Shown piece by piece: positions 5,305 through 28,174 of a stretch of DNA of 28,174 bases. Below the pieces are notes generated by a model. That model was not told the origin of the DNA, made no database searches, and saw only the letters and a list, made by a program, of their open reading frames with translations. Position 1 is the first letter of the stretch. Every line of letters begins with the position of its first letter. Source of the stretch: a virus; the IMG/VR virus record IMGVR_UViG_3300043775_003238, positions 1-28,174 of that record; one strand, given 5' to 3'. A program made the position numbers and the translations under genes.

Positions 5305-5307
5305 TTG

Positions 5308-5322
5308 TGGCTATTTATAAGG
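5308..5322 (+). promoter_or_regulatory. Candidate late promoter before gp25-like gene
   Basis: TATTTATA occupies 5312-5319, immediately after the nrdA terminator and 30 bases before the chosen ATG of the first structural gene. A related ATTTATA element precedes the genes at 7763, 16245 and 25286, with a degenerate version before 23359. The T4 late consensus is TATAAATA; this is its reverse complement, so the match is suggestive only. Confidence 0.35.
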
Positions 5323-5349
5323 AAAAACAAGGGTCTTATATTTATCTTT

Positions 5350-5820
5350 ATGGCGAACGGAGTAACATATGGAATAAACTTTCCTTTCAGAGATTCGAGA
5401 CGGGGTGATTTTTTAGAACTTACCCAATTAGAATCTCAGCAAATTAAATCTGACTTAATTCACCTTCTTTTAACTAGAAAAGGTAGTAGGTATTTTTTAC
5501 CTGATTTTGGAACAAGACTGTATGAATTTTTATTTGAGCCATTTGATGGTTTAACTTTTGATGCAATACAATCAGATATAAGAGATGCTGTTCAAGTTTA
5601 TATGCCAAACCTGTTATTGAATCAAATATCAATCACACCTGCTGACCCAATGGAAGAAGTTGATACCATGTTAGGTGAAAATACACTTGGAACAAGCGAG
5701 TCTCCAATTTATAGATTACCTGGAAAAGGAACTTCGGAATATACCGCTAAAATTAGAATAGATTACTCGAACAACAGATCGACTTTTGCTCAAAGTGATT
5801 TTGTTATTATTAATATTTAA
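5350..5820 (+). CDS. 25: Baseplate wedge protein, gp25 / GpW-like family
   Basis: This is a small wedge component of contractile-tail baseplates, equivalent to T4 gp25 and P2 gpW. It would help join the sheath/hub to the wedge. The family is often labelled 'lysozyme', but its role in baseplates is structural. The signature is the block around residues 38-70 (IHLLLTRKGSRYFLPDFGTR, then LYEFLFEPFD), matching the G-x-R-x-x-x-P-x-F-G core of the family, followed by an amphipathic helix (FDAIQSDIRDAVQVYMPNLL). I start at the ATG at 5350, giving 156 residues. The frame also has a TTG at 5307-5309 region that would add about 15 hydrophobic residues, but those codons overlap the terminator tail and the candidate promoter, so that start is unlikely. 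It precedes the gp6-like gene by 5 bases, the same order as T4 25-6. Confidence 0.88.
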   Translation: MANGVTYGINFPFRDSRRGDFLELTQLESQQIKSDLIHLLLTRKGSRYFLPDFGTRLYEFLFEPFDGLTFDAIQSDIRDAVQVYMPNLLLNQISITPADPMEEVDTMLGENTLGTSESPIYRLPGKGTSEYTAKIRIDYSNNRSTFAQSDFVIINI

Positions 5821-5825
5821 TATAG

Positions 5826-7664
5826 ATGGCAAATCGTAAAATTTCATATACAACTAGAGATTATCAGGGGATAAGAACTGAGTTATTAAACTATGTAAGA
5901 ACATACTATCCTGAATTGATTCAGGATTTTAATGACGCATCTGTATTCTCGGTATTTTTGGACTTGAATGCTGCGGTTGCTGATAACTTACATTATCACA
6001 TAGATAGAAGTATTCAAGAAACAGTACTTCAATATGCGCAACAAAGATCTTCAATATATAATATTGCGAGAACTTATGGATTAAAACTTCCTGGACAAAG
6101 ACCATCAGTATCTTTAGTAGATTTTTCAATTACCGTACCTGCCTTTGGAGATAAAGAAGATGAGAGATATCTTGGAACTTTAGCGAGAGGGTCTCAAGTG
6201 TCAGGTGCTGGTATAATATTTGAAAACATATATGACGTTGATTTTACATCACCATATAATGCCCAAGGGTTTCCCAACAGATTAAAAATACCTAACTTCA
6301 ATGCCAATAATGTTTTGGTTAATTATACTATTACCAAGAGAGAATTAGTTGTTAATGGTATTACTAAAGTTTTCAAAAGGGTTATTACTCCAAACGATGT
6401 TAAGCCATTTTTTGAATTATTCTTACCTGAAAAAAATGTATTAGGAATCACAAGTGTATTACTTAAAAGTGGTACTGAATATACAAACATACCTACAGCG
6501 GCGGAATTCTTAGGAGTTCCTAACAAATGGTATGAAGTAGATGCCCTTGCCGAAGATAGAGTTTTTATTGAAGACCCTACAAAAGTTTCCGACCAACCAG
6601 GAATTAAAGTTGGTAGATATATTCAAACACAAAATAGATTCATTAGTGAATACACTCCTGAAGGGTTTAAGAAATTAACTTTTGGTGGAGGAACCAATAC
6701 GGCACAAGATGCGTTAAATCAATTTACAACATTAGGGGCAACGATAGACCTACAAAGATATTCAAACAATTTATCTTTGGGTTCGGCTTTAACTCCGAAT
6801 TCAACTCTGTTTGTTCAATATAGAGTTGGGGGTGGTTTAGGTACTAACTTGGGAACAAATGTTATCACTCAGATTGGTACTGTATCTTTCTTTGTTAATG
6901 GTCCATCAGAACTAACAAACTCATCGGTAGTTAATTCTTTGAGATGTAACAACGTTACTGCTGCAATTGGTGGAGCAGGGTTACCATCTTTGGAAGAAAT
7001 TAGAAATTATGTATCATTCAACTTTTCCGCACAGAAGAGAGCGGTGACAGTTCAAGACTACGAATCTATCATCAGGAATATGCCTTCAGAATTTGGAGCA
7101 CCTGCAAAAGTTTCAGTTACAGAAAACGATAATAAAATTTTAATTCAATTGTTGTCTTACGATACCTCTGGTAAATTAACTAATATTGTATCGAACACCT
7201 TGAGACAAAATGTTGCAACCTATCTTTCTAATTATAGAATGATTAATGACTATATTTCCATTTTGACTGCTGAAGTAATTGATCTTAGTGTTGAGGTATC
7301 AGTTGTATTAACTTCGGCACAGAATTCAGGACAAGTTATTGCTGATGTTGTAGACAGAATTTCGACTTACTTTAATCCACAAGTGAGGGAATTAGGACAG
7401 AATGTTTATTTGTCTGAGATACAAAGTATTGTACAGAACCAAAATGGTGTACTTACAGTAGCAGGAATTAAGGTATTCAATAATGTGGGTGGACAATATT
7501 CTTCGGCTGAAACATCTATGCAATATTCTGATCCTGAAACGAGACAAATTGCTCCTGTTGCCGACACTATTTTTGCTCAGCCTTCACAAGTTTATCAAAT
7601 AAGATATCCAAATAAGGATATTAAAGTTTCAGTAGTAAACTTCCAATCCACAACATTCTCTTAA
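5826..7664 (+). CDS. 6: Baseplate wedge protein, T4 gp6 / P2 gpJ-like
   Basis: Its predicted role is to form the inner ring of the baseplate wedge, as T4 gp6 does (660 residues; here 612). The N-terminus (ISYTTRDYQGIRTELLNYV, then YYPELIQDFNDASVFSVFLD) is the characteristic start of gp6/J-type wedge proteins. The following helical stretch (LNAAVADNLHYHIDRSIQET) and QRSSIYNIARTYGLKLPG are also family-like. The middle is a beta-rich insertion. The section around residues 395-430 (SFNFSAQKRAVTVQDYESII, then MPSEFGAPAKVSV) matches the conserved J-domain core. Gene order directly behind the gp25-like gene is the strongest supporting context. It is followed by a 98-base gap, the longest in the tail block before 23252, so the next gene may have its own promoter. 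Confidence 0.88.
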   Translation: MANRKISYTTRDYQGIRTELLNYVRTYYPELIQDFNDASVFSVFLDLNAAVADNLHYHIDRSIQETVLQYAQQRSSIYNIARTYGLKLPGQRPSVSLVDFSITVPAFGDKEDERYLGTLARGSQVSGAGIIFENIYDVDFTSPYNAQGFPNRLKIPNFNANNVLVNYTITKRELVVNGITKVFKRVITPNDVKPFFELFLPEKNVLGITSVLLKSGTEYTNIPTAAEFLGVPNKWYEVDALAEDRVFIEDPTKVSDQPGIKVGRYIQTQNRFISEYTPEGFKKLTFGGGTNTAQDALNQFTTLGATIDLQRYSNNLSLGSALTPNSTLFVQYRVGGGLGTNLGTNVITQIGTVSFFVNGPSELTNSSVVNSLRCNNVTAAIGGAGLPSLEEIRNYVSFNFSAQKRAVTVQDYESIIRNMPSEFGAPAKVSVTENDNKILIQLLSYDTSGKLTNIVSNTLRQNVATYLSNYRMINDYISILTAEVIDLSVEVSVVLTSAQNSGQVIADVVDRISTYFNPQVRELGQNVYLSEIQSIVQNQNGVLTVAGIKVFNNVGGQYSSAETSMQYSDPETRQIAPVADTIFAQPSQVYQIRYPNKDIKVSVVNFQSTTFS

Positions 7665-16244: not shown

Positions 16245-16889
16245 ATGAAAGTTTGTAGTAAATGTAATATTGAAAAACCATTCGAAGATTTTAATAAAGG
16301 TAGAGGATCCTGTAAACTGTGTACAAAGGAATACGATAGAATTAAATATTTGAATAATTCAGAAAAATATCGTGAATATAGTAAAAAAAGATATAAGGAT
16401 AATCCTGAATATCAAAAAAAATGGTCTATAAAAAACAAAGATAAACGTGATTCCACATTAAAAAAATGGAATGAGGAAAATAGAGAAAAGGCAGTTCAAT
16501 ACACTTTGAAGTGGAGAAGTAAAAACACTGAAAAATATAACCAATATATGGTGGATAGAAGAAAAAACGAACCATTATTCAAATTGGCTTTTAATGTTAG
16601 AAAGAGATTGAACAAATTTTTGAAAAATAAGAGTATAATTAAGTCAAATAAAACTTTCGATTTGGTCGGCATTACTCCGAAAGAATTGAAAGAACACCTC
16701 GAAAAACAATTTTTTCAAGGGATGTCTTGGGGTAATTATGGGGAATGGCATATTGACCACATTATACCTTTATCCTCTGCAAAAACAGAAGATGAAATTT
16801 ATAAATTGTGTCATTATACCAATCTTCAACCTTTGTGGGCTGAAGATAACTTAAGAAAAGGAAATAAATTAATTAAACAAGCGACATAA
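16245..16889 (+). CDS. Free-standing HNH homing-type endonuclease
   Basis: This is a mobile DNA endonuclease of the kind found between structural genes in T4-like phages. It has 214 residues. The N-terminus has two CxxC pairs (Cys4/Cys7 and Cys23/Cys26), a zinc-ribbon-like module. Residues ~35-110 are Lys/Tyr/Trp-rich, with a loosely repeated unit (KNKDKR ... EENREKA ... KNTEKYNQY) likely to be DNA-contacting helices. The catalytic HNH region is at 168-207: WHIDHIIPLSSA supplies Asp171-His172, followed by Asn193 (YTNLQPLWAE) and Asn202 (DNLRKGNK). All core residues are present, so it could be active. It interrupts an otherwise overlapping chain of tail genes: the sequence after its stop reads TAATG at the next gene's start, like the undisturbed junctions elsewhere. 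Its highly A-rich, Lys-rich composition differs from its neighbours and fits recent arrival. It has no structural role in the tail. Confidence 0.92.
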   Translation: MKVCSKCNIEKPFEDFNKGRGSCKLCTKEYDRIKYLNNSEKYREYSKKRYKDNPEYQKKWSIKNKDKRDSTLKKWNEENREKAVQYTLKWRSKNTEKYNQYMVDRRKNEPLFKLAFNVRKRLNKFLKNKSIIKSNKTFDLVGITPKELKEHLEKQFFQGMSWGNYGEWHIDHIIPLSSAKTEDEIYKLCHYTNLQPLWAEDNLRKGNKLIKQAT

Positions 16890-16891
16890 TA

Positions 16892-17800
16892 ATGGCAATT
16901 GGGAGCTATGGAACAATAAGACCATCAGACGTTAGTCCCGCTGATGTAGAGATAATTCTTAATTTTACGCCCACAAGGGACGTTACAGACCAATTTGTTT
17001 TAACAAAGTTGGACGCTCAAACTATATTGAGACCCTACTTCGCAAACTCTGAAACAGGAGGAAACGCTGGTGTTGAAGTATTGGGGGGACTTTACAATTT
17101 AACATTACCCGCAAATCAATTCAATGCGTTGGGAATTTACACATTATATATAAGACCTGCGGAAATCAGAACGGTAATTAGTGATTGTGGTGTTTTAAGT
17201 GCGTTACCTAACGTCAAAGGTATTATTATTGACATTTCTAATGTTCCTACACAATATCAAAACAAATTTGTACCTCAAGGATTAGTCGGATTCAGAGTTG
17301 AATATCTTAATCCTGATGGTTCTAAAATACCTAATTTCTTCAGAGTTGTTACATCAAGTTTCTTTTGTGAGCCTGTTGTAACAAATGAGGTTAACACGAC
17401 ACAAAAGGCGATAAGATATAGATATGTTGATGGAGATTCAAATCTAATATTTCTAACACTATCACCGTCATCATCACCAACAAACAAACCAAATGCAACT
17501 CCGTACATTGGACAGCCTGACCAAAATATTATAATCACTAATACCTTTTTCAATCCTGTATCTGTAGAGATTGAAATGGTTGAGTACGATATTTCTTCTC
17601 TTGCTATTGCTCTATATGGTAATCAAACCAAATCTATCGATGATGGTATCTACACTATCTACGATGCTAATGATAACATATACAGACAGTACAACCTATA
17701 CGAAATTAGAGACCAATTTAATGCTCTTCTTTATGAGGTTAGACAAAGCAGAGGTAATAATATTGATTTCAGTAAAAACTTTACAAATATAACTAGTTAA
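16892..17800 (+). CDS. Unrecognised 302-aa tail/baseplate protein
   Basis: I do not recognise this family. It lacks a signal peptide, membrane segments or repeats. The N-terminal portion (MAIGSYGTIRPSDVSPADVE) reads like the short exposed arm of a virion protein. The middle is beta-rich (LYNLTLPANQFNALGIYTLY, GLVGFRVEYLNPDGS). A Ser/Pro/Thr-rich linker (LSPSSSPTNKPN) is present at about 190-205. The C-terminus is helical and charged (YRQYNLYEIRDQFNALLYEV), consistent with docking onto a partner. The ATG lies 2 bases after the HNH stop, in the context TAATG, and the gene's own stop overlaps the start of the gpI-like gene in the same TAATG arrangement, so a baseplate wedge partner is the simplest inference. 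Confidence 0.72.
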   Translation: MAIGSYGTIRPSDVSPADVEIILNFTPTRDVTDQFVLTKLDAQTILRPYFANSETGGNAGVEVLGGLYNLTLPANQFNALGIYTLYIRPAEIRTVISDCGVLSALPNVKGIIIDISNVPTQYQNKFVPQGLVGFRVEYLNPDGSKIPNFFRVVTSSFFCEPVVTNEVNTTQKAIRYRYVDGDSNLIFLTLSPSSSPTNKPNATPYIGQPDQNIIITNTFFNPVSVEIEMVEYDISSLAIALYGNQTKSIDDGIYTIYDANDNIYRQYNLYEIRDQFNALLYEVRQSRGNNIDFSKNFTNITS

Positions 17801-20784
17801 TGGCTACGACTCAAGGTACTACTAAATTTTTTTATCCGCCACGACCCGGTAGTGGTGCTGCGACCTTCTCTGACAATATTGTAGGATTACAAACAGTTGA
17901 AGGGGGAGGACTCACGCAAGGTAACTTTGAGTTTACAACTTCGGTTACTGAAAAAGTTAATAGAACCTTTAATGTTGGGGCTTTCTCTGAACCTATAAGT
18001 TTGGAGGGATTGAATATTGGTGACGTTAATGAGAGTAGAAGAATTATGGCGACACAGTTCAGAGTATATCCGAACTATGATGTGTCTCAAGTTCTAAACT
18101 TTTCTATGTATGGATCTTTAAGTAAAAGATTTCAAGTATCTATTACTGAAATTATACATAGATTTCCGGCTTCATTAGATATAGTATTCAACAATGATAA
18201 TTTTATAACAGGTTCGACTGCTACTAATATATCTTATGATTCCGTATTGAATGAAACATCATTCCGTATTAATGTAAGTAGAATTAATAATCCATTCGAT
18301 ATTGATTATTCTTTAAGTGCTGCAACAAATTTATCTGTAAGAGAAATAACCGTTTCTCCGTATAGAAATTTGTATAATACTTATTTGGATTATTGTGTGT
18401 CAATCAATGACAATATTTTTAATATTGTTTCATTTACTCCATCACAAACACTGACAACAGGATTCATCGAATTCATTGTTTCAGGTTCACCATTTGGGGT
18501 GACAGCAACTACATCTAACGAAGAATTTCAAATAAGGCCAAATGATTTTGTTGTTGATAGAATTTTTGCTGAAGATTTTGATGAGGTACAAAAATTTTTA
18601 TTAAACCGACTTATAAGACCGGAGTATACTGCGGTATTTCAAGTGCCACAACAAAATGAAGCCGGACAATTTTATACTAATTTTCAACAAGTAACATGGC
18701 CTAAAGATGGGCCGTGGAATTTGGATATTAGGTCATTTTTGTTTGAGAATTACTTGAGCCAACTTGAGGAAATTGCGATTAATTTGGATTCCTTCAAAAC
18801 AAATTTAATCTCAAGATTTTTGGTTACAGATTCTTTGAAGGAATTTGATACATTAGGACAAAAAGTTGAAAAGATATTTCAAATTTATGGTAGAAGTTTT
18901 GACCAAATCAAACAATTCATAGATGCCTTGGCATACATGAACTCTGTTAGTTACAATCCTTCTAATGATATTCCATCACAACTTTTAGTGAATTTGGCAC
19001 AAACACTTGGATGGAGTTCTAATTTCTCGCCAATTACTAATGAGGACTTTTTAAGTTCTGTATTCGGAAATACATCAACACCAACCTATCCTGGTTATGC
19101 TAGGGCACTAACACCTACGGAATTGAATTATGCATTCTACCGTAATCTTATTCTTAACGCATCTTACTTATTCAAATCTAAGGGAACTAGACGTTCAGTT
19201 GAATTTATGTTAAGATTAATCGGAGCTCCCGATTCTTTAATTGAATTCAATGAACATATCTATTTGGCTGACCAAAAAATAAACATGGATCAATTTGGTA
19301 TTCAATGGGCGGCTATTTCAGGTGGTACTTATGTTGAAAATACTCCAAGTTTTATTCCAGGTTCAACTTATAAGATAAAGGGTCAAACATTTAGTGCGTT
19401 CACTTCAACTGCAACATATCAAGATGTAAACACCAGATTGGAGGATTACCCTGTTGATTTAGAAGGGTTTCCTAAAGCTCCTGAAAATACTGAAAGTTAT
19501 TTCTTTCAGATAGGATCTGGATGGTATGAATCAACACCTTCGCATAGAAGTCCTGATGAGGTAGTTGTAACAGGTCAGGTATTCACTGGTCAAAATTTTA
19601 ACATACAATCACAATTAACTCCTTTCACTTATGGACAACCATATCTTAATAGATTCAGAGATTTTCCATATATGACTGAAGGGTTCAAACTTAAGAAAGT
19701 GGTTGATAATAATAAATCATGGTTGGAAGAAGACGACAGAATTAGAATTTCAAATAGTGCGGATTATAATGCCTATTATTTTGTTGATAATGAAAAGTTA
19801 GTATTGAATGTTAAAAACGTAGACCTTTTCTTGAATCCAGCACAAGGTTTAGTTTATGATGTTTGGGAAGAATCAAGAAGATATGACTATCCGATACCTG
19901 AATCAGGATTAACAGTTGGTTATCCAGTACCTGGAGGAGTTGATTCTACTTTTATAAATCCACAGCCAAAAAAGAAAACGTTTTTTGAATTTTCTCAAAC
20001 TTTTTGGGAGAATATGATTAACGTAAGAAACCGTCAATATATTACAGATGGTAAAACAGGTGGATATCCCATCTTACAATCAATCTTTTGGAAATATATT
20101 GAATCGGAAAGCACGGTTGGATTACCCAATAACAAATACACCTATCAAAAATTAATTGACTACGTCAATGGTATTGGCCCATATTGGATGAAGTTAGTGG
20201 AACAAATGATTCCGGCAACAACAATATGGAATACAGGAGTTAGGATGGAGAATTCAATATTCCAAAGACAGAAGTTTGTTTATAGAAGACAAAGAGGATG
20301 TCGATTTATACCAGTACCTGTCGATCCATGTTTCATTATTTCAAGTATATTTGATTATACCTGTACTACAGAATACACCGATTTTAATATATTTCCTTGG
20401 TTAAACGGAGATGTTGATGTTAGTAATTTTAGTAGTATATTATCCAATAGAGTTAACAATATGTTAGCCCAAAGTGGGTTAACATTGAATGATTGTATAC
20501 AAAACTCAGTTCAAAGTACTTGGTATGTTGATTTGAGAATTGGTGGGGATGTTATAATTAAAGAGTTGTTTTATGTTGGATATGGTTTGACTGATGTCCC
20601 AACTAATACAATGTGGAGAAATGCATTGATACAATATCTTCCACAACTATATGATTATGGGTTCACATTTTTCTTAAACGGTAACATATTAACAATTACA
20701 AGTCTTACTTGTACTGAAAGAAATATTGGTGAAACACTTTCATTAAACTCGGGAATAAATATAAGTATAAATTGTAACGGTTAA
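17800..20784 (+). CDS. Probable baseplate wedge protein, P2 gpI / T4 gp7-like (994 aa)
   Basis: The proposed role is the large wedge protein that, with gp25- and gp6-like partners, makes the minimal contractile baseplate wedge. The basis is a gpI-like core: a long helical region (QLEEIAINLDSFKTNLISRF and FQIYGRSFDQIKQFIDALAY) followed at residues ~456-480 by YLFKSKGTRRSVEFMLRLIG. This resembles the K-G-T-x-x-x-[IV]-x-x-x-[LM]-x-[LI]-x-G motif typical of tail protein I. Its 994 residues are close to T4 gp7 (1032). An N-terminal beta-rich section (1-290) and a central insertion (~480-700, GQTFSAFTSTATYQ) extend the core. The last ~130 residues (after FIPVPVDPCF) resemble the C-terminus of the following SprB-repeat protein. 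Both boundaries are TAATG overlaps. The alternative is another wedge or fibre-attachment protein containing a gpI-like domain; I consider gp7-like the best call but not certain. Confidence 0.6.
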   Translation: MATTQGTTKFFYPPRPGSGAATFSDNIVGLQTVEGGGLTQGNFEFTTSVTEKVNRTFNVGAFSEPISLEGLNIGDVNESRRIMATQFRVYPNYDVSQVLNFSMYGSLSKRFQVSITEIIHRFPASLDIVFNNDNFITGSTATNISYDSVLNETSFRINVSRINNPFDIDYSLSAATNLSVREITVSPYRNLYNTYLDYCVSINDNIFNIVSFTPSQTLTTGFIEFIVSGSPFGVTATTSNEEFQIRPNDFVVDRIFAEDFDEVQKFLLNRLIRPEYTAVFQVPQQNEAGQFYTNFQQVTWPKDGPWNLDIRSFLFENYLSQLEEIAINLDSFKTNLISRFLVTDSLKEFDTLGQKVEKIFQIYGRSFDQIKQFIDALAYMNSVSYNPSNDIPSQLLVNLAQTLGWSSNFSPITNEDFLSSVFGNTSTPTYPGYARALTPTELNYAFYRNLILNASYLFKSKGTRRSVEFMLRLIGAPDSLIEFNEHIYLADQKINMDQFGIQWAAISGGTYVENTPSFIPGSTYKIKGQTFSAFTSTATYQDVNTRLEDYPVDLEGFPKAPENTESYFFQIGSGWYESTPSHRSPDEVVVTGQVFTGQNFNIQSQLTPFTYGQPYLNRFRDFPYMTEGFKLKKVVDNNKSWLEEDDRIRISNSADYNAYYFVDNEKLVLNVKNVDLFLNPAQGLVYDVWEESRRYDYPIPESGLTVGYPVPGGVDSTFINPQPKKKTFFEFSQTFWENMINVRNRQYITDGKTGGYPILQSIFWKYIESESTVGLPNNKYTYQKLIDYVNGIGPYWMKLVEQMIPATTIWNTGVRMENSIFQRQKFVYRRQRGCRFIPVPVDPCFIISSIFDYTCTTEYTDFNIFPWLNGDVDVSNFSSILSNRVNNMLAQSGLTLNDCIQNSVQSTWYVDLRIGGDVIIKELFYVGYGLTDVPTNTMWRNALIQYLPQLYDYGFTFFLNGNILTITSLTCTERNIGETLSLNSGINISINCNG

Positions 20785-22919
20785 TGGCGGTATTAAATTA
20801 TAATATAACGGTAACAGGTGATTGCTCTAATAATAATTCGGGGGCATTCAATCTATTTGTTAGTGCGGGAACGCCACCGTATACAATAGAGTTTATTACT
20901 CCGTCTTATCCATCTCAAACTATTGTGGCACAACCTGCATCTTTGGTAGGGTTGGCAAGTAATGTTTATCAAATTAGAGTAAACGATAGTACTTTACCTG
21001 TAAACAGCGAGTTTTTAGTTAATATCCCAATTTCTAGTGGAGTATGTGGATCAGTAACTGCGGTTCAAAATACAACTTGTGGAGTCAATAATGGATCTGT
21101 TACAGGTTCGTCAACATCTTTATATTCATCAACCAGTTTTTCTTTGTTTGATATTAATGACAATTATCTAACCTCTGCAATAACTAATACAGATGCGGTT
21201 GTTTTTGGTGGATTAAGCGCTGGAACATATTATTTAGGTGTAACTGATTTGGGAGGATGTACGGCATTTACTCCGACATTTATAGTCCAAGAATCTGAAA
21301 GTTTAGATTATGGATTGTATGTTGTACCAAACTCAAGTTGTGGTGGAACTCCAATAGGTAAAATTTTTGTGACAGGACAAACAGGTCTATCTCCTTATAG
21401 TTATTTGTGGAGTAATGGACAAACTGGTAGTACGATTACAGGATTAACTTCGGGTAATTATTCTGTTGATGTCACTGACGCTTATGGTTGTTCATTGACC
21501 AAATCGGCAACAATTACCAATGTGAATCCGATTGGGTTTGGAGTATTCACTTCTACCGCTCCGACATGTCTTCAGTCCAATGGGGTAATTAACTTAACCA
21601 TTACAGGTGGTACTGCTCCATTCTATTATTCGGCATCTACTGGTAATGTATTGGTATCTTATTCAAGAACTTTTTCAATTTCAGGATTATCCGCAGGACA
21701 ATATAACTTTCAAGTGACAGACGCGGGTTTGTGTCAAATGTTTGCGGGAACAACTCTTGAAACACCTGGAGGAATAACAAGTGTTTCAGTTCAAGGACAA
21801 AATTCGACTTGTTCAAGTAATAACGGTTCGATTACTATAAATGTGGTTGGAGGAACAATACCATATACATATACTTTGATTAGCCCAACGGGTAATCAGT
21901 TGAATATAAGTAATTCCCAGAGTACTCAAATATTTGGAAATCTAAGTGGGGGTACATATACCGTAGGTGTTACCGACAATAGTGGATGTTCTTATTTACA
22001 AGAAGTGAATTTAGTCGCTCAAAATAAATACACTATTTCAACTCAAGTAGTGGGCACGAGTTGTAATCAAAATAATGGGTCGGTTACAATTTTCACAACA
22101 AGTGGAGGAACTTTACCATTAGATTATTCTGTTGACGGAATTCAAAATGTAATAGATACAAATTTAACTGCGGTCACATTCAATAATTTAACTTCAGGTA
22201 CTCATGTTGTTACTGTAACTGACGCGGATGGATGTGTTCAAACTACAAACATTTTAGTACCAAGTAGTCAACCATTAAACTATACTTTATATAGTACTTC
22301 TTGTGGCAGTGGATCTAGTGGTAAAATTACCGCGTTCATAACCTCAGGTGAACCACCATTCAGTTTTAATTGGTCAGACAATGTGCCAAATGAACCGCAA
22401 CAAATACAAGTGAGTGGATTAACTGGTGGCACTTATTTTTTGACTGTAGTAGACAGTAATGGATGTTCATTAACAAGAAATACCACAATAACTTGTAGTA
22501 CAAACTCAACATCATATCAAACTTATGTGATGGGGGCTGAGGTATTTAACATAGAATCACCGACCAAGTTTGGTTTATTACAAATGTTAAATGAAGGATT
22601 TTTTGATTTGACATCGGAGAATACAAATTGTGACTTAATAAATGCGGTATTTACTGCCAAAGTTTCCGTAAATCCTTCAGGTATAATTGCTAGCCAAAAT
22701 TTCTTTACATCGACATCATTAGTTCAGGTTCCAACAGATAATCAGTGGTATGATACTATTCGAACTTTGTTATTAGGAATTCCAGGTGTTGGTAACGTGA
22801 TTATCGACCAACTAAATAATCAAATAACAATCGAAACAAGTAGAAATAATACTTCCCTCGAGGGTCAAGAAATTGTCATCGACTTGATTATAAACTACGA
22901 TATAATTTGTTTATCATGA
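20784..22919 (+). CDS. SprB-repeat-containing tail/fibre protein (711 aa)
   Basis: This is a likely surface-exposed, adhesive tail component. About seven tandem Ig-like repeats of ~75-85 residues fill residues 1-577. Each repeat tends to carry a Cys near the start, an NNGS-type turn (CGVNNGSV, CSSNNGSI, CNQNNGSV), a GGT-x-P-[YF] strand, then a closing LSxGxYxVxVTDxxGC (SGNYSVDVTDAYGC, GGTYTVGVTDNSGC, SGTHVVTVTDADGC). This is the pattern I associate with SprB repeats, named from the cell-surface adhesin of gliding Flavobacterium. The paired Cys in each repeat may form disulfides outside the cell. Residues ~578-711 are a different domain that resembles the end of the upstream 994-aa protein. 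There is no signal peptide, consistent with a virion protein rather than a secreted one. The start is in a TAATG overlap, and the end overlaps the next start by 4 bases (ATGA). Confidence 0.82.
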   Translation: MAVLNYNITVTGDCSNNNSGAFNLFVSAGTPPYTIEFITPSYPSQTIVAQPASLVGLASNVYQIRVNDSTLPVNSEFLVNIPISSGVCGSVTAVQNTTCGVNNGSVTGSSTSLYSSTSFSLFDINDNYLTSAITNTDAVVFGGLSAGTYYLGVTDLGGCTAFTPTFIVQESESLDYGLYVVPNSSCGGTPIGKIFVTGQTGLSPYSYLWSNGQTGSTITGLTSGNYSVDVTDAYGCSLTKSATITNVNPIGFGVFTSTAPTCLQSNGVINLTITGGTAPFYYSASTGNVLVSYSRTFSISGLSAGQYNFQVTDAGLCQMFAGTTLETPGGITSVSVQGQNSTCSSNNGSITINVVGGTIPYTYTLISPTGNQLNISNSQSTQIFGNLSGGTYTVGVTDNSGCSYLQEVNLVAQNKYTISTQVVGTSCNQNNGSVTIFTTSGGTLPLDYSVDGIQNVIDTNLTAVTFNNLTSGTHVVTVTDADGCVQTTNILVPSSQPLNYTLYSTSCGSGSSGKITAFITSGEPPFSFNWSDNVPNEPQQIQVSGLTGGTYFLTVVDSNGCSLTRNTTITCSTNSTSYQTYVMGAEVFNIESPTKFGLLQMLNEGFFDLTSENTNCDLINAVFTAKVSVNPSGIIASQNFFTSTSLVQVPTDNQWYDTIRTLLLGIPGVGNVIIDQLNNQITIETSRNNTSLEGQEIVIDLIINYDIICLS

Positions 22920-25285: not shown

Positions 25286-28174
25286 ATGAGTTTCGAATAT
25301 AAAAATCCAACATCAGGAACACTACTTACAGGACCTAATTCGGTTTTAAGAGATTCTGATACAGGCACTAACTTTAGTGTTGATAGCATAGGTGGTTACA
25401 TGGAAGTTTGGAGTCTTTCAGACTTAAATTGGCAGATACCCGAACAAACAAAAATAGACGGTGGATATGTGTTATATTCAGGTAATAGTATCCCTATTTC
25501 ATTCAATTATGGAGGAGACGGACCAGCCCCGATAATAAGTCAATTAGATTTGAATAATGACGGAATTTCTTCAGGTAGAAGAAGATTGGGAATGTTGGTG
25601 TTTGTGCAAGAAACTCAGCAAACATATCAATATACCATACCTAACTACGAGTCATTGTGGAATGTTGCTTTAGCGGATGGAGACATCTTTGAATTTTCAA
25701 CAGGATATCAAGTTTTGAACACAGAGGCAGGTGGACAAGCTTTCCAAAACGCTTGGACAGGTTCAACAATTGAAGGTGTTAGTGGTGTTACAAGAGAAAA
25801 TGCGAGATGGAGAATTGCTGACTTAAACGATACTATCATAACAGGTGGTACATATTTTTCGGCAACAACATCTTTAGATTTGCGTGATAATTACGGAGGA
25901 ACTGTGACTATCACAGGATTTACAGGAACGGTAACGGGAGGAACTTATAATAGTGGTACTTCAACGTTATCTCTTAATAATAGTGATGGTAGTGTAGTAT
26001 CAATTACAGGTATAACTTCAGGGTCTGGATCGGCCTTATCCGTTGGAGACGGTGGAACACCGGTAACTAATGTTTCAGGAATTACATTTAGTGGAGCCTC
26101 AGTAACAAACGACGGTGATGGAAACATCACTGTAACAATAACTGGTACATGTTGTTCAAGTGGTACCTCGGGTACTAGTGGAACTTCAGGAACTGGAGGA
26201 ACAAGTGGTACATCAGGAACTGGAGGAACAAGTGGCACATCAGGAACTGACGGAACATCTGGATCTAGCGGAATAAGTGGAGTTGATGGTACTAATGGTT
26301 CATCAGGAACTAGTGGTTCATCAGGTACATCTGGTTCTTCAGGAACAACTGGTACATCTGGATCTAGCGGAACATCTGGTACTTCAGGAACTAGTGGAAC
26401 TGATGGAACAAGTGGTACTTCAGGAATCTCTGGAACATCTGGATCTAGCGGTATAAGTGGAGTTGATGGTACTGATGGATCGTCAGGAACTAGCGGAACT
26501 TCAGGTATTTCAGGAACATCTGGTACCTCAGGAACTAGCGGAATAGATGGAACTTCAGGTTCTTCAGGAACACACGGAACATCGGGTACTAGCGGAATAG
26601 ACGGAACTTCAGGAACTAGCGGTACAACTGGTACCTCAGGGACTAGCGGAATAGACGGAACTTCAGGTTCTTCAGGAACTAGCGGAACAACTGGTACCTC
26701 AGGAACTAGCGGAACAACTGGTACCTCAGGGACTAGCGGAATAGATGGAACTTCAGGTTCTTCAGGAACTAGCGGTACAGATGGAACTAGTGGAACTTCA
26801 GGTTCTTCGGGAACTAGCGGAATAGACGGAACTTCAGGAACTAGTGGAACTTCAGGTTCTTCAGGAACTAGCGGAATAGATGGAACTTCAGGTTCTTCAG
26901 GAACTAGTGGAATAGACGGAACTAGTGGAACTTCAGGTTCTTCAGGAACTAGTGGAATAGACGGAACTAGTGGAACTTCAGGTTCATCAGGGACTAGCGG
27001 AATAGACGGAACTAGCGGAACTTCAGGTTCTTCAGGAACTAGCGGAATAGACGGAACTAGTGGAACTTCAGGTTCTTCAGGAACTAGCGGAATAGACGGA
27101 ACTAGCGGAACTTCAGGTTCTTCAGGAACTAGCGGAATAGACGGAACTAGTGGAACTTCAGGTTCTTCAGGAACTAGTGGAACTTCAGGAACTAGCGGTA
27201 CAACAGGAACTAGCGGAACATCTGGTACTTCAGGAACACACGGAACATCGGGTACTAGCGGAATAGATGGAACTAGTGGAACTTCAGGAACTAGCGGAAC
27301 ATCAGGAACTAGTGGAACTTCAGGTTCTTCAGGAACACACGGAACTTCAGGAACTAGCGGAACATCTGGTACTAGCGGTACAACAGGAACTAGCGGAACA
27401 TCAGGAACTAGTGGAACAACTGGTACTTCAGGTACTAGCGGAACTAGTGGAACAACTGGTACTAGTGGAACATCAGGTACAACTGGTACCTCAGGAACTA
27501 GCGGAACATCTGGTACTTCAGGAACACACGGAACATCGGGTACTAGCGGAATAGATGGAACTAGTGGAACTTCAGGTTCTTCAGGAACTAGCGGAATAGA
27601 TGGAACTAGTGGAACTTCAGGTTCTTCAGGAACACACGGAACATCGGGTACTAGCGGAATAGATGGAACTAGTGGAACTTCAGGTTCTTCAGGAACTTCA
27701 GGTTCTTCGGGAACTAGCGGAATAGATGGAACTAGTGGAACTTCAGGTTCTTCAGGAACACACGGAACTTCAGGAACTAGCGGAACATCAGGAACAACTG
27801 GTACTTCAGGTACTAGCGGAACGTCAGGTACTAGCGGAATAGATGGAACTAGTGGAACTTCAGGTTCTTCAGGAACTAGCGGAATAGATGGAACATCTGG
27901 TACTAGCGGAACAACAGGAACTAGCGGAACATCAGGAACTAGTGGAACAACTGGTACTTCAGGTACTAGCGGTACAACAGGAACTAGTGGAACATCAGGG
28001 ACGACTGGTACTTCAGGAACTTCAGGAACTAGCGGAACATCTGGTACTAGCGGTACGACAGGAACTAGCGGAACATCAGGAACTAGTGGAACAACTGGTA
28101 CTTCAGGTACTAGCGGAACTTCAGGAACATCTGGTACTTCAGGTTCATCAGGAACTAGCGGAACATCAGGTACT
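25286..28174 (+). CDS. Collagen-like tail fibre protein, partial (at least 963 aa)
   Basis: The frame is open from the ATG at 25286 to the window end (963 complete codons), so the protein is truncated by the window, not by a stop. Residues 1-~230 form a non-repetitive head (MSFEYKNPTSGTLLTGPN ... RRRLGMLVFVQETQQTYQYT), probably the virion-attachment region. Residues ~230-288 are Gly/Thr/Ser-rich beta segments of fibre type (TFSGASVTNDGDGNITVTIT). Cys289-Cys290 come next. From Gly293 the sequence is an unbroken Gly-X-Y series of about 223 triplets (mostly GTS, GSS, GID, with GTD, GTH, GTT, GVD, GTN, GIS). No proline is evident in the shaft. A collagen-type trimeric fibre shaft is the natural interpretation, with the receptor-binding tip outside the window. 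Start choice is supported by the A-rich leader and the TATAAATA upstream. Confidence 0.85.
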   Translation, partial: MSFEYKNPTSGTLLTGPNSVLRDSDTGTNFSVDSIGGYMEVWSLSDLNWQIPEQTKIDGGYVLYSGNSIPISFNYGGDGPAPIISQLDLNNDGISSGRRRLGMLVFVQETQQTYQYTIPNYESLWNVALADGDIFEFSTGYQVLNTEAGGQAFQNAWTGSTIEGVSGVTRENARWRIADLNDTIITGGTYFSATTSLDLRDNYGGTVTITGFTGTVTGGTYNSGTSTLSLNNSDGSVVSITGITSGSGSALSVGDGGTPVTNVSGITFSGASVTNDGDGNITVTITGTCCSSGTSGTSGTSGTGGTSGTSGTGGTSGTSGTDGTSGSSGISGVDGTNGSSGTSGSSGTSGSSGTTGTSGSSGTSGTSGTSGTDGTSGTSGISGTSGSSGISGVDGTDGSSGTSGTSGISGTSGTSGTSGIDGTSGSSGTHGTSGTSGIDGTSGTSGTTGTSGTSGIDGTSGSSGTSGTTGTSGTSGTTGTSGTSGIDGTSGSSGTSGTDGTSGTSGSSGTSGIDGTSGTSGTSGSSGTSGIDGTSGSSGTSGIDGTSGTSGSSGTSGIDGTSGTSGSSGTSGIDGTSGTSGSSGTSGIDGTSGTSGSSGTSGIDGTSGTSGSSGTSGIDGTSGTSGSSGTSGTSGTSGTTGTSGTSGTSGTHGTSGTSGIDGTSGTSGTSGTSGTSGTSGSSGTHGTSGTSGTSGTSGTTGTSGTSGTSGTTGTSGTSGTSGTTGTSGTSGTTGTSGTSGTSGTSGTHGTSGTSGIDGTSGTSGSSGTSGIDGTSGTSGSSGTHGTSGTSGIDGTSGTSGSSGTSGSSGTSGIDGTSGTSGSSGTHGTSGTSGTSGTTGTSGTSGTSGTSGIDGTSGTSGSSGTSGIDGTSGTSGTTGTSGTSGTSGTTGTSGTSGTTGTSGTSGTTGTSGTSGTSGTSGTSGTTGTSGTSGTSGTTGTSGTSGTSGTSGTSGSSGTSGTSGT
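26156..28174 (+). repeat. Gly-X-Y (collagen-like) coding repeat, more than 2 kb
   Basis: The repeat is a 9-base period: a GGN codon, then usually ACN, TCN or ATA, then AGC/AGT, TCA/TCT or GAC/GAT. Many nested larger repeats (27, 36, 45 bases) are visible. Serine is coded either as AGC/AGT after ACT or as TCA/TCT, and Gly as GGA or GGT, so copies diverge mostly at synonymous positions. The repeat runs off the window end. Confidence 0.95.
26900..27169 (+). repeat. Six tandem copies of a 45-base unit
   Basis: Six head-to-tail 45-base units (starting at 26900, 26945, 26990, 27035, 27080 and 27125) each encode the 15 residues GTSGIDGTSGTSGSS. Differences between units are only synonymous (AGC versus AGT, GGA versus GGG, TCT versus TCA). 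A shorter 36-base variant precedes them at 26864. This is a recent local expansion within the shaft. Confidence 0.9.

Follow-up and report, generated by a model that had tools for sequence, protein, structure and literature searches.

Neighbouring genes for related baseplate proteins are known from contractile-tailed phages. In T4, gp10, gp11 and gp12 are the products of sequential genes, form the baseplate periphery and the short fibre, contact one another, and have a common fold that suggests a common origin (PMC3004832); in the same source, a disulphide may link gp10 to gp7. For phage Milano, cysteines are listed as the link between a wedge protein and a protein of the short tail fibre (PMC10811340). 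A third point of reference is the huge bS21-bearing phages with predicted hosts among freshwater Bacteroidetes, for which genomes of up to 331 kb and myovirus-type baseplate genes are described (PMC9723584). Here, a pair of adjacent genes, A and B, is described from a window of 28,174 nucleotides that spans positions 1 to 28,174 of IMG/VR virus record IMGVR_UViG_3300043775_003238. The T4 proteins (gp10, gp11 and gp12, and also gp9/gp10) are the closest precedent, in that A and B are likewise neighbouring genes whose products have a homologous domain. What sets A and B apart is that their homology is detectable at the sequence level and lies in a C-terminal domain, carried by a wedge-like protein and by a protein with SprB repeats. 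Among the matches listed, none linked T4 gp10, gp11 or gp12 to this domain by sequence or fold, which does not exclude such a link. The resemblance to Milano lies in the conserved cysteines of the shared domain, where a disulphide is putative. A and B follow the T4 and Milano logic, with other partners and with a domain that is distinct and unnamed. Among the open-licence literature matches listed, as judged by title and the start of the abstract, there was no paper on the A/B pair; a term search of PMC9723584 returned no mention of SprB or "tail fiber", and one of PMC7345892 found SprB in a reference only.

The window is a piece of a large tailed phage genome in which genes for a replicative helicase and a ribonucleotide reductase precede the baseplate genes (Table 1). 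The gp25-like and J-like genes and A lie on one strand, with six open reading frames (ORFs) between the J/gp6-like gene and A; these include long ORFs of no assigned family followed by an HNH/endonuclease VII-like gene that is inserted in the baseplate region (16245-16889). The presence of gp25-like and gp6/J-like genes upstream of A makes a contractile-tail baseplate operon likely. The ORFs and coordinates that the sequence-only reading gave for A and B proved correct. The ATG of B overlaps the TAA of A by one base (TAATG at 20782-20786), and the shared domain ends both proteins. A short ORF separates B from the Pro-Thr-rich protein, which comprises a head of ~74 aa, a Pro-Thr stalk and an end of ~189 aa. 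The long repetitive ORF that follows (25286-28174) matches tail-fibre and collagen-like PHROGs and runs off the window; its GC content is higher, at about 0.47, and the strand opposite its repeats holds a mirror open frame of 742 aa.

Table 1. Features of the window that bear on the A/B gene pair.
Feature	Position	Strand	Evidence
gp25-like baseplate wedge protein	5305..5820	+	PHROG 261 "baseplate wedge subunit", E 1.7e-17
gp6/J-like baseplate wedge protein	5826..7664	+	PHROG 6, E 3.6e-23; Pfam Baseplate_J, E 1.2e-7
Protein A, 994 aa, probable baseplate wedge protein	17800..20784	+	ORF; sub-threshold Tail_P2_I; core alignment
Shared C-terminal domain, A copy (A residues 848-994)	20341..20781	+	Cys899, Pro934 and Cys992 conserved
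Protein B, 711 aa, SprB (Ig-like) repeats followed by the shared domain	20784..22919	+	ORF; Pfam SprB, E 9.2e-21
Shared C-terminal domain, B copy (B residues 568-711)	22485..22916	+	Cys616, Pro650 and Cys709 conserved
Separate Pro-Thr-rich stalk protein, 632 aa	23359..25257	+	Stalk at residues ~75-443

Gene context together with weak similarity makes a baseplate wedge protein the most likely identity of A. A had been called gpI-like, and the gene order expected of such a protein is indeed present, downstream of homologues of W (gp25) and J (gp6) in a baseplate operon; the family match itself is weak, with Tail_P2_I (PF09684) touching residues ~447-482 of A at 10.5 bits, below the curated cut-off of 20.6 bits. 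Eleven of 17 relatives gave a sub-threshold Tail_P2_I match at about the same model positions as in the window, and none exceeded the cut-off. The same search matched 6 of 14 control genomes, two of them over the cut-off, so the match on A constitutes weak evidence. At E ≤ 0.1 for Pfam and NCBIfam and E ≤ 0.01 for PHROG, A matched no family, and none from these collections was outstanding for its relatives; by alignment, A has a conserved core of ~840 aa. B carries SprB repeats (PF13573) in five stretches at 73.6 bits against a cut-off of 28, and all of its family matches lie outside the shared domain. Bacterial gliding adhesins with SprB repeats typically bear a C-terminal sorting domain of the type IX secretion system (T9SS). 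B terminates in the shared domain instead of a T9SS sorting domain, and the search for the latter gave just 13.5 bits against a cut-off of 23 for Por_Secre_tail, at residues 428-490. The most likely reading of B is an arm or fibre built of repeats, and its description as fibre-like is based on these repeats and on the adhesin-like extensions found in its relatives.

The sequence-only reading held that the C-termini of A and B are related while the remainder of the two proteins is not. Compared directly, the two C-termini give a marginal signal: the local BLOSUM62 score of 60 (shuffle mean 34.6, SD 5.9) was reached by 4 of 2000 shuffles, the semi-global score of 41 by 19 of 2000, and BLASTP returned a 26-residue piece at E 0.004. 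The named motif pairs do line up in the pairwise alignment, with the helix pair NMLAQSGL/QMLNEGFF falling in the less certain N-terminal third. On pairwise comparison alone the case would be weak and inconclusive, and it is here that chance or convergence of short beta-rich tails might be invoked. Scans of viral contigs with each C-terminus recovered 68 and 45 loci, respectively, and within these the A homologue of one locus (L067) was matched both by a single-sequence search with the C-terminus of A and, at E 3.1e-6, by phmmer with the C-terminus of B. When the profile of each family was run against 3010 ORFs, matches at E ≤ 10 were confined to the other family. Profile-profile comparison of the two C-termini with hhalign gave 93.4% and E 2.5e-7 over 134 columns with alignments of 26 and 29 rows, and 97.0%, E 9.2e-11 and a score of 66 over the last ~97 columns with alignments of 71 rows drawn at random from longer lists. 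Controls remained at noise level, with scores of at most 20.8 for 64 segments, at most 19.6 for 100 column shuffles, and 10.3 and 13.6 for reversed profiles.

More distant loci were then added before single-family models were built. The domain sets initially held 176 A and 168 B sequences, and 174 A and 158 B non-redundant proteins were used for the single-family models and for the analyses of extensions and conservation; ORFs that run off a contig or have a matched stretch below 110 (later 125) residues are omitted from these sets. The B-only model matched 128 of 174 A proteins at a domain E ≤ 1e-3 (best 4.7e-10), the A-only model matched 60 of 158 B proteins at the same threshold (best 5.2e-7), and all of these matches lie inside the C-terminal domain. 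Of 2706 ORFs, 3 and 12 others were matched at E ≤ 10, every one of them an A or B frame truncated where its contig stops. Over their C-terminal ~145 residues, A and B thus carry two copies of one small alpha/beta domain; the profile and HMM evidence makes homology secure across the last ~97 of these residues and likely across all of them. Given the profile E value, the reciprocal matches confined to the domain, and the invariant positions common to both families (see below), chance or convergence is already contradicted and retains next to no probability. The remainder of the proteins (A 1-848 against B 1-568) is unrelated, as claimed, with hhalign at 0.06% and E 0.78 and nothing from BLASTP under E 0.67. 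Faint matches of the B model to A residues ~270-325, with i-Evalues above 1 and an hhalign score of 20.8 (3.6%) for the segment A 253-397, were rejected as noise.

AlphaFold models of the domain (pLDDT 86.7 for the A copy and 80.7 for the B copy) have the same order of elements, namely a short strand, a helix, a long beta hairpin, a helix, a small hairpin and a long last strand. The A model has two extra short helical turns, and the first 15 residues of the B model are of low confidence. Predicted structure, compared by order of elements rather than by overlay, is in line with a shared domain. No PDB fold match at E ≤ 0.001 was found for either model. The best VIA-align Z values, 5.5 and 5.7 for the two models, are below the level at which the tool is trusted, and the rows include a T7-type nozzle protein, a Y-family polymerase domain, flagellin and a tail-sheath domain. 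Both models draw overlapping, weak PDB neighbours of a common arrangement, which leaves some room for convergence when taken without the profile evidence. Milano chains are weakly represented among the fold matches of A (8foy, Z 4.1; 8fqc_K1, Z 4.0; 8fop_j, Z 3.8); judged by their lengths and ranges, these are probably the Milano sheath protein. It should be noted that the lack of a family among these PDB fold matches is not evidence of its absence. Searches of PDB sequences gave a best E of 0.21 with the mixed profile, a match that was set aside, and 0.44 with the full A alignment, and none at 0.1 with that of B. Against predicted viral structures (BFVD), the B model found A0A6J5LD72, an SprB-repeat protein of an "uncultured Caudovirales phage" (Foldseek E 2.4e-11, with 23% identity over 140 columns and a TM of 0.80 by query length). 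With its 714 aa, this protein is probably an orthologue of B; its predicted structure contains the domain of B, and its record name gives the repeats only, with no shared domain.

Conserved residues point to a structural role for the domain. In domain-alignment numbering, C51, W60, P86 and C144 are present in 174 of 174 A proteins, and G37, C48, F72, P82 and C141 in 158 of 158 B proteins. A mixed alignment of 18 rows has invariant C, F, P, I and C columns, and the same Cys, Pro and Cys positions are kept by both families. Six of the seven cysteines of A fall within its last 161 residues (A 834-992, window 20299-20775), with one in the preceding 833 residues; five of these six are invariant in a 10-row A alignment and the sixth is nearly so. 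A reasonable guess is that the conserved cysteines form a disulphide that pins the module, or they may be a buried pair. Variability bears on the suggestion that the wedge and the arm each use the domain to bind receptors or glycans. Across 54 lineages the A domain diverges faster than the core of A (median identity 0.35 vs 0.55), as parts in contact with the host often do, whereas in B the domain and the repeats vary to much the same extent (0.36 vs 0.39). As the invariant Cys and Pro positions suggest a structural role, and such adhesin-like modules as were recognised are located behind the domain and not within it, a binding module is regarded as quite unlikely.

The pair is inherited as a unit. 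A total of 349 loci were recovered, of which 331 have one A and one B ORF bearing the domain. A alone is present in 17, and B alone in one (L114), which is a piece of the window itself. Since the 349 loci include repeats of the same contigs, the 331 were reduced to 161 distinct junctions; all 161 have A followed by B on the same strand, with the B frame opening within about 90 bases of the end of A. In the first set of loci, the first ATG of B overlaps the stop codon of A by one base in 97 of 106 cases. Fifteen of the 17 A-only loci end within 1851 bases past A. The exceptions are L346 and L300, where no domain copy is present in the 2317 visible residues of the ORF after A and in the 1211 visible residues after A, respectively, so that the copy of A may do without that of B. 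The ORF after A in L346 (7453-14403) encodes a chain of more than 2300 residues of Pro-Thr linkers and small modules.

Whether the domain ends other fibre proteins could be addressed in 17 large records (104-326 kb): in all 17, domain matches at E ≤ 1 fall in the A and B frames only. No third copy was detected at this threshold, although such a loose first look could miss a very divergent one. The proposal of a duplicated module therefore holds as far as the module itself is concerned: it is real, it is duplicated, and in these records it is confined to A and B. One large record (G011) has an A copy plus a B copy matched in two pieces; two-piece matches of the B domain also occur at L328:7651-10137 and L339:7419-9917 and suggest an insertion inside the domain. 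In two large phage records (G002:C1:9486-9914 and G014:C1:90380-90808), the A-domain match contains one internal TAA. In a tree built from 54 domain copies of each protein, a single branch at 100/100 parts A from B (the bootstrap was unsettled, at 0.948 where 0.99 was wanted). The tree shows no exchange between A and B copies and, being unrooted, is silent on which copy is older; it fits a single duplication that would have preceded the diversification of this group of large phages.

Relatives of A from the window (E 1e-5) or of the B domain (E 1) were absent from 50,697 phage records, and cultured phages yielded no relative of the B domains of two further loci (L065 and L107). The A protein of L067 has a weak 135-residue match to a hypothetical protein of Microcystis phage Mel-JY01 (E 4e-3). 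When contigs of bacterial and archaeal genomes were scanned once with the B alignment, 49 pattern matches resulted, none of which was confirmed. A match to bS21 at E ≤ 0.01 was present in 8 of the 17 large records, over the cut-off in seven, a feature in common with the huge phages of freshwater Bacteroidetes described above, and a Bacteroidota host is accordingly considered likely.

In many relatives, Pro-Thr stalks are fused behind the domain of B, and in a few behind that of A; elsewhere they are encoded by separate genes, and some relatives have both. An extension of more than 20 residues past the domain was found in 52 of 158 B proteins (18 of 24 clusters) and in 13 of 174 A proteins (2 of 25 clusters), the longest reaching 640 residues. 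A loose Pro-Thr-type motif is present in 37 of the 52 B extensions and in all 13 A extensions. Ten extensions, eight from B and two from A, were scanned against Pfam: DUF285 repeats exceeded the cut-off in three, all from B, six had no match up to E 0.01, and one had a sub-threshold match alone. Among loci in which the B extension is 40 residues or shorter, 182 have a Pro-Thr-rich ORF downstream, 32 have none, and 48 end too early for a verdict; in 25 loci B has a Pro-Thr tail and is also followed by a Pro-Thr-rich ORF (both counts are of redundant loci). Pro-Thr stalks and variable modules directly behind the domain suggest that it also serves as a platform for tips, a role that goes beyond the fusions themselves.

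These observations are brought together in a tentative model, to which a probability of about 0.45 is assigned, in which the domain is a duplicated module at the baseplate edge whose A and B copies pack together or on the same surface and carry adhesive parts. The rigid core of A would sit in the wedge with its C-terminal copy pointing outward. B, made together with A, would meet it at the baseplate edge, its own copy packing against that of A or against the same neighbouring surface, and the two would carry the adhesive parts, with tips hanging from the domain via Pro-Thr stalks with variable modules. Two domain copies in adjacent, overlapping genes that are inherited together suggest parts that meet. 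The sequence-only reading had envisaged the module as a means of hanging an adhesive fibre on the wedge, and docking of B on A is plausible on these grounds. Several observations count against it. First, once the rest of the proteins is allowed for, distances of the A and B domains have a partial correlation of 0.32, which is low, vs 0.13 and 0.19 for the cross pairs, and lies below the 0.64 of the non-domain parts; the coevolution argument from distance matrices was set aside as too weak to use. Second, phage fibres usually anchor by their N-terminus, and the domain of B is C-terminal or precedes a C-terminal extension. Third, the model as a whole is weakened by the weak assignment of A to the wedge, given that sub-threshold Tail_P2_I matches also occur in unrelated control genomes.

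The main rival is that the copies are not in mutual contact and that each is a self-contained C-terminal module for assembly or display on a different part of the tail, e.g., a homotrimer seed or a cap with Pro-Thr-tethered tips. Such modules could account for the extension of both copies by Pro-Thr linkers and other modules, for the weak co-variation of the two domains, and for an A copy with no visible B copy in L346, and operon order alone could explain the adjacency of the genes; strict adjacency and exactly two copies per large record are a better fit to a working pair, and the rival is considered somewhat unlikely. Paired packing of the two copies can also be taken further: wedge and arm may be connected by a heterotypic joint of the two, a disulphide-pinned and duplicated "hinge" that bears interchangeable Pro-Thr-tethered tips and through which tip binding would be passed straight to the wedge and trigger contraction in large phages that probably infect Bacteroidota. 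This elaboration is speculative and improbable as a whole.

The observation that A and B share a domain is true and well supported, and the mechanism proposed for it is conditional on the arguments above. The domain provides a sequence handle on the outer baseplate of a widespread group of uncultivated large phages, and it adds a further case of the T4-type pattern in which neighbouring baseplate proteins derive from one ancestral domain. The Pro-Thr linkers and variable modules that follow it directly mark sites at which host-recognition parts may be swapped, which makes B-type proteins candidate carriers of receptor-binding functions in these phages.
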